DNA from: Natronospira bacteriovora
GTDB lineage: Bacteria > Pseudomonadota > Gammaproteobacteria > Natronospirales > Natronospiraceae
Assembly: GCF_030848495.1 (NCBI RefSeq)
Contig: NZ_JAVDDT010000001.1
Coordinates: forward strand, 310,001-374,000
DNA: 64,000 nucleotides
Direction of reading: 5' to 3'
Under the pieces are notes generated by a model. That model worked only from the letters and a program-made list of their open reading frames with translations, was not told where the DNA came from and did no database searches. This document shows positions 18,940-30,580 of this stretch, piece after piece. Positions within the stretch are counted from its first letter, which is position 1; each line of letters starts with the position of its first letter. The position numbers and the translations under genes were made by a program.

Positions 18940-18966
18940 GCCCGGCCCTTGTGGCCGGGCTTTTTT
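18940..18966 (+). terminator. Rho-independent terminator after the DUF4382 gene
   Basis: A GCCCGGCC / GGCCGGGC stem with a 5-base loop is followed directly by six T residues. This is a textbook intrinsic terminator for the upstream + strand gene. Confidence 0.92.
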
Positions 18967-18967
18967 G

Positions 18968-19012
18968 ATTCTTCGCGAAAATGCGGGGAGCGGATTCGGG
19001 CGGGGTTGCCGT
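18968..19012. repeat. Single arm related to the 26-kb nested palindrome
   Basis: The stretch reads TTCTTCGCGAAAATGCGG and continues through TCGGGCGGGGTTGCC. It closely resembles 26046-26085, the outer left arm of the palindromic element at 26043-26635. No matching right arm is visible downstream, so this looks like a solitary or decayed end. Confidence 0.6.
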
Positions 19013-19096
19013 GGCGAGGCCGACCGGAACGGGGTCGAGACGAGCCGACAAGACGTTACAATAGCGGCCAGCCCGCGACTCAGACAGGAGAGATTG

Positions 19097-24166: not shown

Positions 24167-26017
24167 ATGATCGAAGCGCAGGTCATCCATACCCTCGGAT
24201 TCACGCTCTTGCACTTTCTGTGGCAAGGGCTGCTGCTCGGTGCCGTCTATGGCAGCGGCCGCTGGCTGCTGCGATCGGCTTCGCCGGCAAGCCGGTATGG
24301 CTGGGCCCTGGGCGCGCTGATGCTGCTCGCCCTGACGCCGATCATGACCTTCATCCATCTTTTGCCGTCGGCGTCGAATGCCCCGCTGGCCGTCCCTGAT
24401 TCACTCCGGTACACGGCCGACACGGTCTCGGCCACCTCGGCGGCCGCCGGCTTTGATGTCGGGCTGCTGCTCCCCTGGGTCGTAACCGCCTGGCTGCTGG
24501 GGGTTGCCCTCATGTCCTTCCGGCTGGGGCTGGGCTGGTGGTACATCCATCAATTGCGCAGGACGGCGGATTACGCCATTCCGGAACGCTGTCAGCGCAT
24601 CCTGGACGACATGCGCCATCGTCTCGGAGTGATGCAGCGGGCCGGACTGGCAATGAGCGAACGTATCCACGGCCCCATGCTGGTGGGCGTCTTCCGCCCC
24701 CTGGTTCTGATGCCGGCCAGCCTGGCAACGGGCCTGACACCCAGGCAGCTGGAAATGGTGCTGGCTCATGAACTGGCCCATCTCAAGCGCTTTGATCATG
24801 TCATCAACTTCCTGCAGACACTGACCGAAACCCTGTTTTTCTACCAGCCGGTGGTGCGCTGGGTATCCCGTGACATCCGGGTGGAACGTGAACTGGTCAG
24901 TGATCAGCTGGCCGTGGCCACCACCGGGGATCGGGTTGCCTATGCGGAGACGCTGCTGGCCCTGGAGAAACGCCGGGGTGACCGTCTGTCCCTGGCCATC
25001 AGCATGGCCGATCGGCAGATCGCGGCACGGGTCAAACGCCTGCTCATGTCCCCGCGACAGCAATCCGGCAGCGTGATTGCGAGCATGGCCACGCTGGTTC
25101 TGGTGGTGGCTTCCCTGTCCGCCGGTGTCGGCCTTCATCTCCAGGAAGAAGCCGAGCCCCAGGTCGAAACACCGGCCACGACCTCGCCCGCCACGCTGGA
25201 TGACGCAGCGATTGAGGATGCCATGGTCGGCGACGACCGGATCACCGAGCTGGCCACTGAATCCCTGACGGAAGAAACGCCTGACACCGCCGTGGCCGAG
25301 CCGGTGGAGCCGGCTGGTTCTGCGCCGCTCGATGATGACGGGGTTCAGGAGGAAGAAGTGCAGCTGGCGGCATTGAGCGACGTGAGCCAGACAGACACTC
25401 TCGGCGAAAGCAGCCACCTCAGCGATGAGTCGCCGGCGCTCTCCCGTGAAGCGGTCGAGAATGCCAACACGGGCACGGAAGGCACTGAAGCAGAGAGGCC
25501 TCTGATTGACGACACGGCCGGTGACGAGGCCACGGAAGGTGTGGCAGAGCGCGAGGAAGAGGAGGCGGTGGACACGGCCGTTCCGTTGCTTGCGCTGGCC
25601 GACGTGGAGAGTGATGCCACGGCGATTCCGAACAACCGTCCCCGTCCGAGGGACGCTCGAATGACGGAAGAAGCAACTCGCGAATCAAGGCCGGAGCCCC
25701 GCATTGACGGTGGTGAGGTGATCGAACAACACGCTCCCCACTATCCCTCCATGGCCAAGCGCCAGGGTCTCGAAGGCCGTGTGGAACTCAGCCTGACCGT
25801 CGACCGGAATGGCCGGGTGAGCGAAGTCTGGATCATCGAGGAGTCTCCCCGGGGATACGGGTTCGGCCGTGAAGCGATCCGTGCGGCCCAGCAATGGCGC
25901 TTCGAACCTTTCACACGCGATGGCGAACCGGTGCCCCGCGAAATCCGCACCGGCTTCGACTTCGAGGAACCCACTGACTGCAGCCGCATGACCGGCTCGA
26001 ACATCCCGCGCTGCTGA
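24167..26017 (+). CDS. M56/BlaR1-like membrane metallopeptidase fused to a TonB C-terminal domain
   Basis: The 616-residue protein has four N-terminal membrane segments around a cytosolic zinc protease loop with HELAHLKRFDH near residue 201, and a fifth segment at about residues 304-326 (MATLVLVVASLSAGVGL). A long acidic, Thr/Glu-rich linker follows at about 328-510. The end is a TonB-type domain (HYPSMAKRQGLEGRVELSLT, then RAAQQWRFEPF). There is no penicillin-binding sensor domain as in BlaR1. It pairs with the BlaI repressor upstream. An envelope-stress or peptide sensor with a TonB-like periplasmic arm is a reasonable guess, not a demonstrated role. Confidence 0.9.
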   Translation: MIEAQVIHTLGFTLLHFLWQGLLLGAVYGSGRWLLRSASPASRYGWALGALMLLALTPIMTFIHLLPSASNAPLAVPDSLRYTADTVSATSAAAGFDVGLLLPWVVTAWLLGVALMSFRLGLGWWYIHQLRRTADYAIPERCQRILDDMRHRLGVMQRAGLAMSERIHGPMLVGVFRPLVLMPASLATGLTPRQLEMVLAHELAHLKRFDHVINFLQTLTETLFFYQPVVRWVSRDIRVERELVSDQLAVATTGDRVAYAETLLALEKRRGDRLSLAISMADRQIAARVKRLLMSPRQQSGSVIASMATLVLVVASLSAGVGLHLQEEAEPQVETPATTSPATLDDAAIEDAMVGDDRITELATESLTEETPDTAVAEPVEPAGSAPLDDDGVQEEEVQLAALSDVSQTDTLGESSHLSDESPALSREAVENANTGTEGTEAERPLIDDTAGDEATEGVAEREEEEAVDTAVPLLALADVESDATAIPNNRPRPRDARMTEEATRESRPEPRIDGGEVIEQHAPHYPSMAKRQGLEGRVELSLTVDRNGRVSEVWIIEESPRGYGFGREAIRAAQQWRFEPFTRDGEPVPREIRTGFDFEEPTDCSRMTGSNIPRC

Positions 26018-26042
26018 ACGCCAAAAACCGGGTTGCATAAAA

Positions 26043-26635
26043 AGGTTCTTCGCGGAAAAGCGGAGAGGGAACTCGGGCGTGGTTGCCGGGGCGGGTCTTG
26101 GTGGCCCTGACCAGAACACGCCGTGAATACGTCCCTGTAGGCTCGAGGGAAACATCCCTGTTTCCCACGGTTCTGGTCAGGGCCACCAAGACCCTTTCCA
26201 GAGCGGTGATTCGTCGGGTTGGTGGGGGCGTGCCCGGAAGCGTAAGGGGAACCACTGCCCGCTCCCTTTGTACCCGCAGCCAACGGGATTTCTCCTCTCG
26301 CGAGGCGCGACGAACGTCGTGTAGCCACTGCGCTACATGAGTGAGGAGCAACGACGTCGAGAGGAAGAATCCCGTCGGCCCGAAGGGTTGGTGCTGAGAG
26401 CGGCTGTCTCTGCGTTGCATCGCTTGCCCGTAGCACAGAGGCTACTGTGCGGCGCAATGCGCCTTGAGTCAGCCACTCTCAGCGCCAACTGCGGGTACAA
26501 AGGGAGTGGGCAGTGGTTCCAAACAGGACGTTGATTTCGCAGCCTACAGGGACGTACTTGCGGCGGTTCCGGGCACGCCCCCACCAACCCGACGCCCCCT
26601 AACCGCCCGGCCCTCCCCGCTTTTCCGCGAAGAGC
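26043..26635. repeat. Nested palindromic element, about 593 bp, non-coding
   Basis: This stretch consists almost wholly of inverted repeats nested in each other. Outer arms 26043-26068 and 26610-26635 match at 24 of 26 positions. Inside are a hairpin of two perfect 25-bp arms (26092-26116 with 26169-26193), a perfect 28-bp pair (26211-26238 with 26566-26593), a 29 of 30 pair (26248-26277 with 26489-26518), an 18-bp pair (26282-26299 with 26357-26374) and a 20-bp pair (26386-26405 with 26469-26488). A 16-bp segment at 26127-26142 also complements 26539-26554. Small open frames cross it on both strands but look like nothing known. It lies between convergent genes. Confidence 0.92.
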
Positions 26636-26637
26636 CA

Positions 26638-26668
26638 TAAAAAAAGCCCACCCGATTCGGGTGGGCTT
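26638..26668 (-). terminator. purL: Rho-independent terminator of purL
   Basis: An 8-bp stem GCCCACCC / GGGTGGGC with a 5-base loop is followed, on the minus strand, by seven T residues (the A-run at 26638-26644). On the + strand only three T residues follow, so it mainly serves purL. Confidence 0.92.
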
Positions 26669-26689
26669 TCTGCGTTCACCGCGGGGCGA

Positions 26690-29600
26690 TCAGCCCAACC
26701 AGCGTCGGGCGTTGCGGAACATGCGCAGCCAGGGGCCATCATCCCCGGGCCAGTCGGCCGGCGCCCAGGAATGGTTCACGGTACGGGTGATGCGTTCCGG
26801 GTGAGGCATCATGATGGTGGCCCGGCCATCCGGCGTGGTCAGGCCCGTGATGCCGGCCGGGGAGCCGTTGGGATTGGCCGGATATTGTTCCGCCACCTGG
26901 CCGCGGTTATCCACGTAGCGCAGGCTGACCAGGCCACCCCGTTCCACGGCCTGCTGATCCGTGGCTGACGCAAAGGCCGCCCGGCCCTCCCCGTGGGCAA
27001 TCGCAATGGGCAGACGGGAACCGGCCATGCCGCCCAGGAACAGCGAAGGGCTGTCCATGACTTCCACCAGACTGTAGCGGGCCTCGAACTGCTCGGAGCG
27101 GTTGCGCAGGAAGCGAGGCCAGTTCTCCGCTCCGGGGATGATGTCGCGCAGTGTGGCCAGCATCTGGCAGCCATTGCAGACGCCCAGGGCAAAATGATTC
27201 TCGTCGGCGAAGAAGCGGGCAAAGATCTCCCGGGCCTGGTCGTTGAAGAGGATCGACTTGGCCCAGCCCTGACCGGCACCGAGTACGTCGCCATAGGAGA
27301 AGCCGCCGCAGGCCACCAGGCCCTGCATGGCCTCCAGTTTTTCGCGCCCCCCGACGATATCCTGCATATGCACATCCACCGCCTCGAAACCGGCGCGGTG
27401 GAAGCTGGCCGCCATTTCCACATGACCGTTGACGCCCTGCTCGCGCAGGATGGCCACCCGCGGGCGGGCACCGGTTCCGATCATGGGCGCGGCAATGTCC
27501 TCGGCGGGATCGAAACTCAATACCGGGCTCAGACCGGGGTCTTGCCGATCCAGGATGTCTTCCAGTGCCTCGTCCGCACAGGCCGGGTTGTCACGCAACC
27601 GCTGCATGCGGTGGCTGACCCGGCTCCAGGGGGCGAGCCAGTCGAACAGGGAAGCTGCCAGCAGGGTATCGCCGTCCCGGCTGATGCGGACACGGTCATC
27701 GGACTGCGGGCGCCCCAGCCAGTGCAGGGCCTGGTCAAGACCGGCCTCGGCGAAGGCCGCCATCACGGCTTCACGATCGGCATCCGCCACCTGAAGCACG
27801 GCGCCCAGCTCTTCGTTGAACAGCACCGCCGCCGCGTCATCGCCCAGGCCATCCAGGTTCACGTCGAAACCGCAGCGACCGGCGAAGGCCATTTCAGCCA
27901 GGGTGGCGAGCAGACCGCCATCGGAACGATCGTGGTAGGCCAGCACACGACCCTCGGCCAGCAGCGCCTGTACCGCCTGGAAGAAGCCGGACAGCAAGGC
28001 CGGCTCATCCAGGTCCGGCGCGGTATCGCCAAAGCCCTGTTCCACCTGGGCGAGAATGGAACCCGCCAGGCGGTTCTGGCCACGGCCAAGATCCACCAGC
28101 AGCAGCTCCGAATCGCCACGCGGCAGAAGCTGCGGAGTGACCGAAAGGCGGACATCGCTGACCGGCGCAAAGGCGGAAACGATCAGCGACACCGGCGAGA
28201 CCACGGCCTTGTCACCGTTCTCGTCCTGCCACTGGGTCTTCATGGACAGGGAGTCCTTGCCCACCGGGATGGTCAGGCCCAACTCACTGCACAGTTCGTG
28301 GCCCACGGCCTTGACGGTGTCAAAGAGGATGGCGTCCTCGTTCCCGTGATTGGCGGCGGCCATCCAGTTGGCGGACAGGCGCACGGTTCTGAGATTGCCG
28401 ATGTGGGCCGACGCGATATTGGTGATGGCCTCGCCCACCGCCATGCGCCCGGAGGCCGGGCCGTTGATGACGGCCAGCGGGGTGCGCTCGCCCATGGCCA
28501 TGGCCTCGCCGGTGAAACCCTCGTAGCCGGACAGGGTCACGGCGCAATCGGCCACCGGCACCTGCCAGGGACCGACCATCTGATCGCGCACGCTCAGCCC
28601 GCCCACACTGCGATCACCGATGGTGATCAGGAAACGCTTGTCAGCGACCGTGGGGTGCGCCAGTACCTTCTCCACCGCCGACGCCAGATCCACGCCTTCC
28701 GTACTGAAAGGCCTGGGGCGGGCGACGGGCCGTCGGGTGTCACGGGACATCTTCGGCGGCTTGCCCAGCAGCACCTCCATGGGCATGTCGACCGGCTGGT
28801 TGTTGAAGTGCGGATCCACCACCGTCAGCTGCGGCTCCACGGTGGCCTCGCCCACGTCGGCGAAGGGGCAGCGCTCACGCTCGCAGATGGCCTCGAAACG
28901 GGGCAGATCCTCCGCGGCAATGGCGAGTACATAGCGTTCCTGGGCCTCGTTGCACCAGATGCCCATGGGCGACATGCCCGGTTCGGCATTGGGTATGCGG
29001 CGCAGATCGATGCGACCGCCCCGGCCGGCATCGTCAAGAATCTCGGGGATGGCATTGGAAAGGCCGCCGGCGCCCACGTCATGGATGGAGAGAATCGGGT
29101 TGCCCTCGCCCAGGGCCCAGCAGCGATCGATCACTTCCTGACAGCGACGCTCGATCTCCGGGTTCTCCCGCTGCACGGAGGCAAAATCCAGTTCCGCTTC
29201 GCTGGCACCGCTGGCCATGGACGAAGCCGCCCCGCCACCCAGACCGATCAGCATGGCCGGCCCGCCCAGCACGATGACCCGCGCACCGGCCGGCACTTCC
29301 CGCTTTTCCACATGGCCGTCGCGGATATTGCCCATGCCGCCGGCGATCATGATCGGCTTGTGATAGCCGCGTACCGGCGCATCTCCTTCCTCCGCCTGCT
29401 GTTCATAGCTGCGGAAGTAACCGGCCAGGTTGGGCCGGCCGAATTCGTTGTTGAAGGCGGCCCCGCCAATGGGGCCTTCCAGCATGATATCCAGGGCCGA
29501 GGCGATGCGATCGGGACGGCCGGTGTCGGGTTCCCAGTCGGCGGTGGCGCCGGGGATCCGCAGGGCGGACACGGAAAAACCGGTCAGGCCCGCCTTGGGC

Positions 29601-30580
29601 TTGGCACCAATGCCGGTGGCACCCTCGTCGCGGATCTCGCCGCCGGAGCCGGTGGCCGCTCCCGGGTAGGGTGAGATGGCGGTGGGATGATTGTGGGTCT
29701 CGACCTTCATGATGATGTTGGCCGGTTCCTGAACCATGCGATAGACCCGTTCCCCATCCGGGAAGAAACGCCCGGCGGCATGCCCCGCCACGGCGGCGGC
29801 ATTGTCGCGATAGGCCGACAGCACGCCCTCACTGTTGGCCCGGTAGGTGTCACGGATCATGTCGAACAGGCTCTGGGCCTGGGCCTCGCCATCCACCGTC
29901 CAGTCGGCGTTGAAGATCTTGTGTCGGCAATGCTCGGAATTGGCCTGGGCGAACATCATCAGTTCCACGTCAGCCGGGTCGCGGCCGAGGCGCTGGAAGT
30001 TCTCCACCAGGTAATCGACTTCATCGTCCGAAAGCGCCAGGCCAAGGCGCTGATTGGCCGCATCCAGCGCCTGACGCCCCTCGCCCATCACCGGCACGGT
30101 TTCCAGCGGCGCCGGCCGGGCGTGGCTGAACAGGGCGGCTGCCTCGGCGGGTGCCTTCAGCACCGATTCGGTCATGCGGTCATGCAGGGCCGCCGCCAGA
30201 GTCCGCCACTGGCCCTCGTCCACCTCCCCGTCCAGAAAGACGCGATAGCGGATGCCGCGCTCGATTCGCTGGATGTGACTGAGACCACAGCGATGCAGGA
30301 TATCCGTGGCCTTGCTCGACCAGGGGGAAATGGTGCCGATACGGGGCGTGACCCAGACATCCAGGCTGTGGTTGCTGCGCCCGTCAGCGGCCGGGGATCC
30401 ATCGTCCAGCAGACGGCCCAGCAGGGCCCGCTCATCCTCCGGCAGCGCCCCCTCCAGATCCGCCAGGTAGAACCACTCGGCGGTCAGGTCCCGAACGCCG
30501 GGATGAAGGTCTCGCAACGCGAGGAGGAGTTTTTCCAACCGGAAATCGGAAAGGGCCTTGCCGCCGGGGAAGTGCTGCAT
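26690..30580 (-). CDS. purL: Phosphoribosylformylglycinamidine synthase (large single-chain type)
   Basis: PurL converts FGAR to FGAM with glutamine and ATP in purine synthesis. The 1296-residue length matches the single-chain gammaproteobacterial form (E. coli 1295). Visible signatures are [14 protein letters not shown] in the N-terminal half, [32 protein letters not shown], and a C-terminal glutamine amidotransferase with the nucleophile in [10 protein letters not shown] and the His/Glu pair in MMPHPERI. It starts at 30580, 175 bp from the YycJ-like gene upstream on the same strand, with a 9-bp-unit repeat between. A strong terminator follows its stop. Confidence 0.97.

Follow-up and report, generated by a model that had tools for sequence, protein, structure and literature searches.

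The window, by which we mean the whole 64,000-nucleotide stretch of the Natronospira bacteriovora genome that was analysed (contig NZ_JAVDDT010000001.1, positions 310,001 to 374,000), contains a 593-nt palindrome at 26044-26636, between an M56-peptidase/TonB gene and a convergent purL. The computed fold of the palindrome has a minimum free energy of -412 kcal/mol, versus -250 +/- 6.7 kcal/mol in shuffles (z -24.4), and no shuffle folded as well. An initial annotation had seen neither a gene nor transposase-like coding here, and the open reading frames that cross the palindrome were indeed without a match in a Pfam search. The features of the locus are as follows.

24167-26017, plus strand: M56-peptidase/TonB gene
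26037-26043, no strand: target-site direct repeat, left copy, ATAAAAA, identical to 26637-26643, with similar A/T-run repeats at other copies
26044-26069, plus strand: left terminal inverted repeat of element A, GGTTCTTCGCGGAAAAGCGGAGAGGG, with an ISL3-like GG.TCTTCGCG start; homology ends here in many dispersed copies
26093-26194, plus strand: H unit 1, with outer stem 26093-26117/26170-26194, conserved motif with hairpin 1 at about 26118-26143, and inner hairpin at about 26145-26165
26212-26594, minus strand: H unit 2, interrupted by element B, with outer stem 26212-26242/26564-26594, motif at about 26541-26566, and inner hairpin split around 26241-26247 and 26521-26540
26248-26520, no strand: element B, 32-bp terminal inverted repeats 26248-26279/26489-26520 around two long hairpins (about 26281-26378 and 26387-26488)
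26611-26636, minus strand: right terminal inverted repeat of element A, an inverted pair and the homology limit of copies
26637-26643, no strand: direct repeat, right copy, ATAAAAA, within the U-tract of the purL terminator
26639-26666, minus strand: intrinsic terminator of purL (GCCCACCCG AAT CGGGTGGGC, then seven T), identified by sequence and the hairpin 26643-26669; the insertion target, intact
26690-30580, minus strand: purL

The inverted pairs within the palindrome are these.

26044-26069/26611-26636: 26 nt, 92%
26093-26117/26170-26194: 25 nt, 100%
26119-26143/26541-26565: 25 nt, 88%
26212-26242/26564-26594: 31 nt, 97%
26248-26279/26489-26520: 32 nt, 97%
inside 26281-26488: two long terminal hairpins, from the fold computation

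The six inverted pairs that the initial annotation had described, two of them as perfect (25 and 28 bp), correspond to nested stems that we also found, but only the 25-nt stem is perfect across its whole reported length, the 28-nt one being a sub-run of a 97% stem. An alternative pairing that it placed at 26127-26142/26539-26554 was recovered as 26119-26143/26541-26565, and is explained by the presence of the conserved H motif in inverted orientation in H unit 2.

A lack of homologous copies had been named beforehand as grounds for doubting a functional structure, and when the palindrome was searched against the genome that contains the window, 96 matching pieces came back. These form blocks, in which the outer ends occur without the middle and the middle (26248-26520) stands alone. 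Contigs C2 and C3 of this genome begin inside copies, as expected at repeat-caused assembly breaks, which would suit a palindrome produced by chance, sequencing or assembly error, but many unlinked copies with clean flanks, their presence in independent genomes and the z of -24 leave an artefact with a negligible probability.

The outermost layer, shell A, has ISL3-like terminal repeats (GGTTCTTCGCGGAAAAGCGGGGAGG). Its end, TCTTCGCGGAAAAGCGGGGAG, was found with at most 3 mismatches at 37 sites, distributed over 26 loci, in the window's genome, and a reversed control pattern at none. Copies span from about 80 bp to 593 bp, and two pairs of loci have identical internal deletion junctions (L027/L028, at CACGCC, and L010/L011), indicating, since the junctions are common to different loci, that shortened copies themselves moved. 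Counting the final C of the right end lengthens the direct repeat around the window copy to 8 bp (CATAAAAA, starting at 26036). Duplication lengths are ambiguous inside homopolymers, with A/T-run repeats in 10 of the 11 two-ended copies; the opposite side has a run of at least four T in 10 of 11, as expected from duplication of a U-tract. The locus was also compared with a relative lacking the element, as had been suggested at the outset: in the congener G001 the same two genes have a short spacer between them and no element, and G002 has a different gene order. Judged as a MITE of any DDE transposon, shell A has terminal inverted repeats that bound its dispersed copies, no transposase gene, and an empty site in a relative. 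Beyond the window's genome, a 21-bp shell A end had one site in a congener (Natronospira sp. MAG contig PWMQ01000058.1), also adjoining a terminator, and was absent from the other relatives searched; a 19-bp end, sought in 369 genomes of the class, occurred in one other genome only, once, with a mismatch and apparently in coding sequence.

Two further observations concern individual copies. A second, truncated shell A copy lies in the window at 18962-19030 (terminal repeat 18970-18990, 2 mismatches), directly after a terminator T-run (GGCCGGGCTTTTTTGATTCTTCGCG). The copies L028 (G000:C1 about 181300-181500) and L010 (G000:C1 about 467800-468300) adjoin tRNA-Ser genes or tRNA 3'-end fragments, and L028 also has an inverted copy of the tRNA-Ser 3' end, past the far end of the element.

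Shell A adjoins the U-tract of an intrinsic terminator at 19 of the 21 loci evaluable in the window's genome, the other five of 26 being truncated or contig-cut on the relevant side; the scorer used for this adjacency passes 0.06% of window positions as background. Viewed from the U-tract side, the arrangement runs from the A end (GAAGAACC or GAAGAGCC) to an A-run and then a GC-rich hairpin. The exceptions are C1:467816, with a weak hairpin, and C3:249173, with none. Because their sequences vary by locus, the terminator hairpins are host targets that lie outside the element. The purL terminator was left intact, as follows from the repetition of ATAAAAA at 26037-26043 and 26637-26643; a simple terminator scan missed it, probably because A/T pairs lengthen its stem. 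Group IIC introns insert just downstream of intrinsic terminators, and shell A is like them in this siting; unlike them, it has DNA inverted repeats at its ends and flanking direct repeats, and an Rfam search of the palindrome, with E values up to 5 allowed, returned no group II intron.

The closest resemblance of shell A is to ISL3-family insertion sequences and possible MITEs, with which it has in common GG(C/T)TCTTC... ends and A/T-rich direct repeats. In other Gammaproteobacteria, ISL3-family elements have GG(C/T)TCTTC-type ends, for example GGCTCTTCGCGTAATCGAATGGGT, and 8-bp, often A/T-rich duplications, for example CATTTTTC and TTTTTTTA; the nearest to shell A, L136, combines the end GGTTCATCGCAGAAGTCCGGGGAG with the duplication TTTTTTTA, a partial likeness. 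Shell A differs from these insertion sequences in having no transposase, no autonomous copy that we could find, and a near-exclusive siting at intrinsic terminators. No autonomous ISL3 element with its ends was found in the window's genome (a draft of 15 contigs) or in the relatives searched, which counts against the mobile-element reading; for want of a partner with matching ends we call shell A ISL3-like and do not file it as an ISL3 member. An ISL3-type enzyme is our best guess, from sequence likeness, for what would move it. The sole match to PF01610 (ISL3 transposase) in the window's genome was rejected as a partner, since it overlaps an acyl-CoA desaturase-like ORF (L044, G000:C8:554-904), part of which it matches with a moderate score above the cut-off. 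Weak PF01610 matches of this kind recur in many genomes of the class and are a trap for automated IS annotation.

Element B, the innermost layer, has stand-alone copies elsewhere in G000, G001 and G002; those of the Natronospira genomes have ends of 31-38 bp, most starting GGAACC. Its duplications, CTAG/CTAG or CTAA/CTAA in the clearest cases, are YTAR-like and clear in L017 and L086, and not clear in the window copy. GGAA... ends with a 4-bp YTAR duplication are the IS5-group pattern, and B is like IS5-group elements in its ends and, in these clearest cases, in its duplication; unlike them it is non-coding and carries two large hairpins. Its arms differ between subfamilies at up to 13 of 32 positions, yet they stay complementary at 29-32 of 32. 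The window copy of B splits H unit 2 within its inner hairpin, and at L021 it is H unit 1 that is split, by a related B. The two hairpins of B (window 26281-26488) have a similar loop, one inverted relative to the other (GTAGCCACTGCGCTAC / GTAGCACAGAGGCTAC); they may be a second conserved hairpin family, with weak matches in two distant genomes of the class.

The palindrome is thus a composite, non-autonomous mobile element of shell A, two H units and element B. These three layers, and the reading of them as a layered mobile element, are well supported, and as an explanation of the whole palindrome a nested, MITE-like element is very probably correct. Two suggestions of the initial annotation, a non-autonomous mobile element and inverted repeats nested by insertion, are both supported here by the dispersed copies, the terminal repeats, the direct repeats, the common deletion junctions, a second element that stands alone elsewhere, and the empty orthologous site. 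The enzymes that moved A and B we infer. An ISL3-family transposase preferring T-tracts would have moved A in trans, inserting it into the U-tract immediately beyond the terminator hairpin; this would have spared the terminator as well as the two convergent genes and duplicated about 6-8 bp of the U-tract. An IS5-group transposase would have moved B. We see no evident role of the element for the two flanking host genes. Small non-autonomous elements inserted into each other are also described in the BOX/RUP/SPRITE clusters of Streptococcus pneumoniae and in other bacterial MITEs, to which the palindrome is alike in its nesting by insertion (PMC10969869); unlike them, it has other ends and another structure, and its H motif is common to differently ended elements across the class.

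The payload of the palindrome is two convergent H units. Each is a three-way-junction (Y-shaped) palindrome with the layout outer stem, ACGCCGYRARTACRTCCCTGTAGGCT, inner hairpin, outer stem. The covariance model R1 matches H unit 1 at 26104-26183 on the plus strand (72.3 bits, E 8.6e-17) and H unit 2 at 26503-26579 on the minus strand (33.9 bits, E 1.4e-6), and uninterrupted versions of H unit 2 occur at L013 and L016. A search of related genomes with a covariance model had been proposed with the initial annotation, and it found H units in 46 of 274 gammaproteobacterial genomes, with up to 29 copies per genome, copy numbers from the class-wide survey being minima because at most 17 candidates per genome were scored there. 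Four Natronospiraceae genomes have 26-29 copies each, some of which are pieces of A copies. An alignment of 28 H units, most of them the sole representative of their genome, has changes on both sides at 26 of 30 pairs and scores 0.78 for covariation, versus about 0.1 for slid partners. The alignment was fitted to the covariance model and leans towards structure, a bias that is minor considering how much lower the slid controls score and that the stem sequences are unrelated. Conserved in H units are the NTCCNT loops of both hairpins and a 26-nt strand, beside stems whose sequences are free.

The initial annotation had held that nothing in the usual lists explains the palindrome. This no longer applies to its outer ends, which look ISL3-like, or to its inner ones, which look IS5-like, but it stands for the H palindromes, for which we could find no match. 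An Rfam search of the palindrome gave sub-threshold matches only, none at the gathering score, and in the literature on the H motif, terminator-targeting ISL3 elements and three-way-junction repeats we found no description. The H family is apparently unnamed, looks new and recurs across the Gammaproteobacteria.

H units occur in more than one carrier. In G002 they lie in a multi-copy palindromic element of roughly 560 bp with other ends and the opposite order, and in G003 and other copies in the window's genome they lie between GGTGAC...GTCACC ends, so the H unit is a common cargo or core of several elements. The G002 element, on contigs C1 and C2 (e.g. L310, L318 and L302), holds two H units in (-,+) order between ends like ATCGAAGCCAAAGCCAGCTCAC. 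A search for plasmid and phage carriers gave no match. H positions mostly differ between species; the few H-bearing intergenic positions that are common to species count against the mobile-element reading. In G265 (contig C1, L226-L232) at least seven H units of equal model score (66.5 bits) and 44% GC are spread over one chromosome, which looks like a recently amplified H family and a good place to seek a mobilising enzyme.

Dispersed intergenic palindromes, often in inverted pairs, are also typical of REP/REPIN sequences with their RAYT (Y1) transposases, and GTAG/GGAG precedes hairpin 2 of the H unit. H units differ, however, in their three-way junction, their long variable outer stem and the lack of a Y1 association: none of 30 Y1-transposase loci in H-bearing genomes had an H unit within 1.5 kb, and two H-bearing genomes had no Y1 match, making mobilisation by RAYT very improbable.

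Strong covariation with conserved loops would ordinarily suggest a structured RNA (a 3'-UTR element, say, or a decoy that binds CsrA/RsmA), with the palindrome kept by selection on the transcript. The reverse-complement strand of both H loops reads ANGGAN closed by C-G, which is like a CsrA/RsmE site. H units are also co-oriented with the upstream gene (at most 300 bp upstream) in 49 of 69 cases (49:20, p = 6e-4, from simple gene calls of our own and H units that are not fully independent), a sense-downstream bias that an RNA role predicts as well. With this co-orientation, transcripts would carry the UCC strand and not the GGA loops. The pairing itself points elsewhere. Selection that acts on a structure through RNA should let G-U pass far more readily than A-C, but across 89 distinct H units 2,415 of 2,590 cells were Watson-Crick, 21 G-U, 30 A-C and 124 other, while eight tRNAs from the same loci, used as a control, had 13 G-U versus no A-C. 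Because G-U is as rare as A-C, H pairing looks kept at the DNA level. A CsrA decoy was rejected, the GGA loops being antisense to most neighbouring genes and RNA-type G-U tolerance lacking. Together with the absence of an Rfam match at the gathering score and positions mostly not common to species, this makes the structured RNA, which the initial annotation had entertained, an unlikely explanation; the orientation bias leaves an RNA role a low probability.

Symmetric mismatches imply equal importance of the two DNA strands, or else copying between the arms. The stems might be passive, descending from a single origin, spread inside several mobile elements and complementary only through template switching at hairpins. 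Such copying would fit the strand-symmetric mismatch spectrum, the compensated stem changes at a site common to two species (L369/L359), and the complementary B arms, in which 34 changes between subfamilies are two-sided versus 12 one-sided. It leaves unexplained the class-wide conservation of the loops and the 26-nt motif beside free stems, and we regard it as a possible, if somewhat improbable, account. Within the main reading, complementarity of the H stems is probably kept at the DNA level, either through an enzyme that would recognise the folded single strand or a cruciform, or through template switching at hairpins. More boldly, we would propose, tentatively and with considerable doubt, that a folded DNA shape (three-way junction, two NTCCNT loops, free-sequence stem) is what defines H units as a family throughout the class, read as single-stranded or cruciform DNA by an enzyme and hitch-hiking in several unrelated miniature transposons.

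Shell A is a clean case of a mobile element parked in a terminator U-tract, a low-damage insertion site, and the count of G-U against A-C pairs is a simple test that separates DNA palindromes from RNA structures where covariation alone suggests RNA. The biology of the H family is the interesting part of the palindrome. Should the family prove real, a dispersed and so far uncatalogued palindrome is present in many genomes of Gammaproteobacteria, drifting in sequence but retaining its shape as folded DNA, and the question of what reads this shape would be directly testable.
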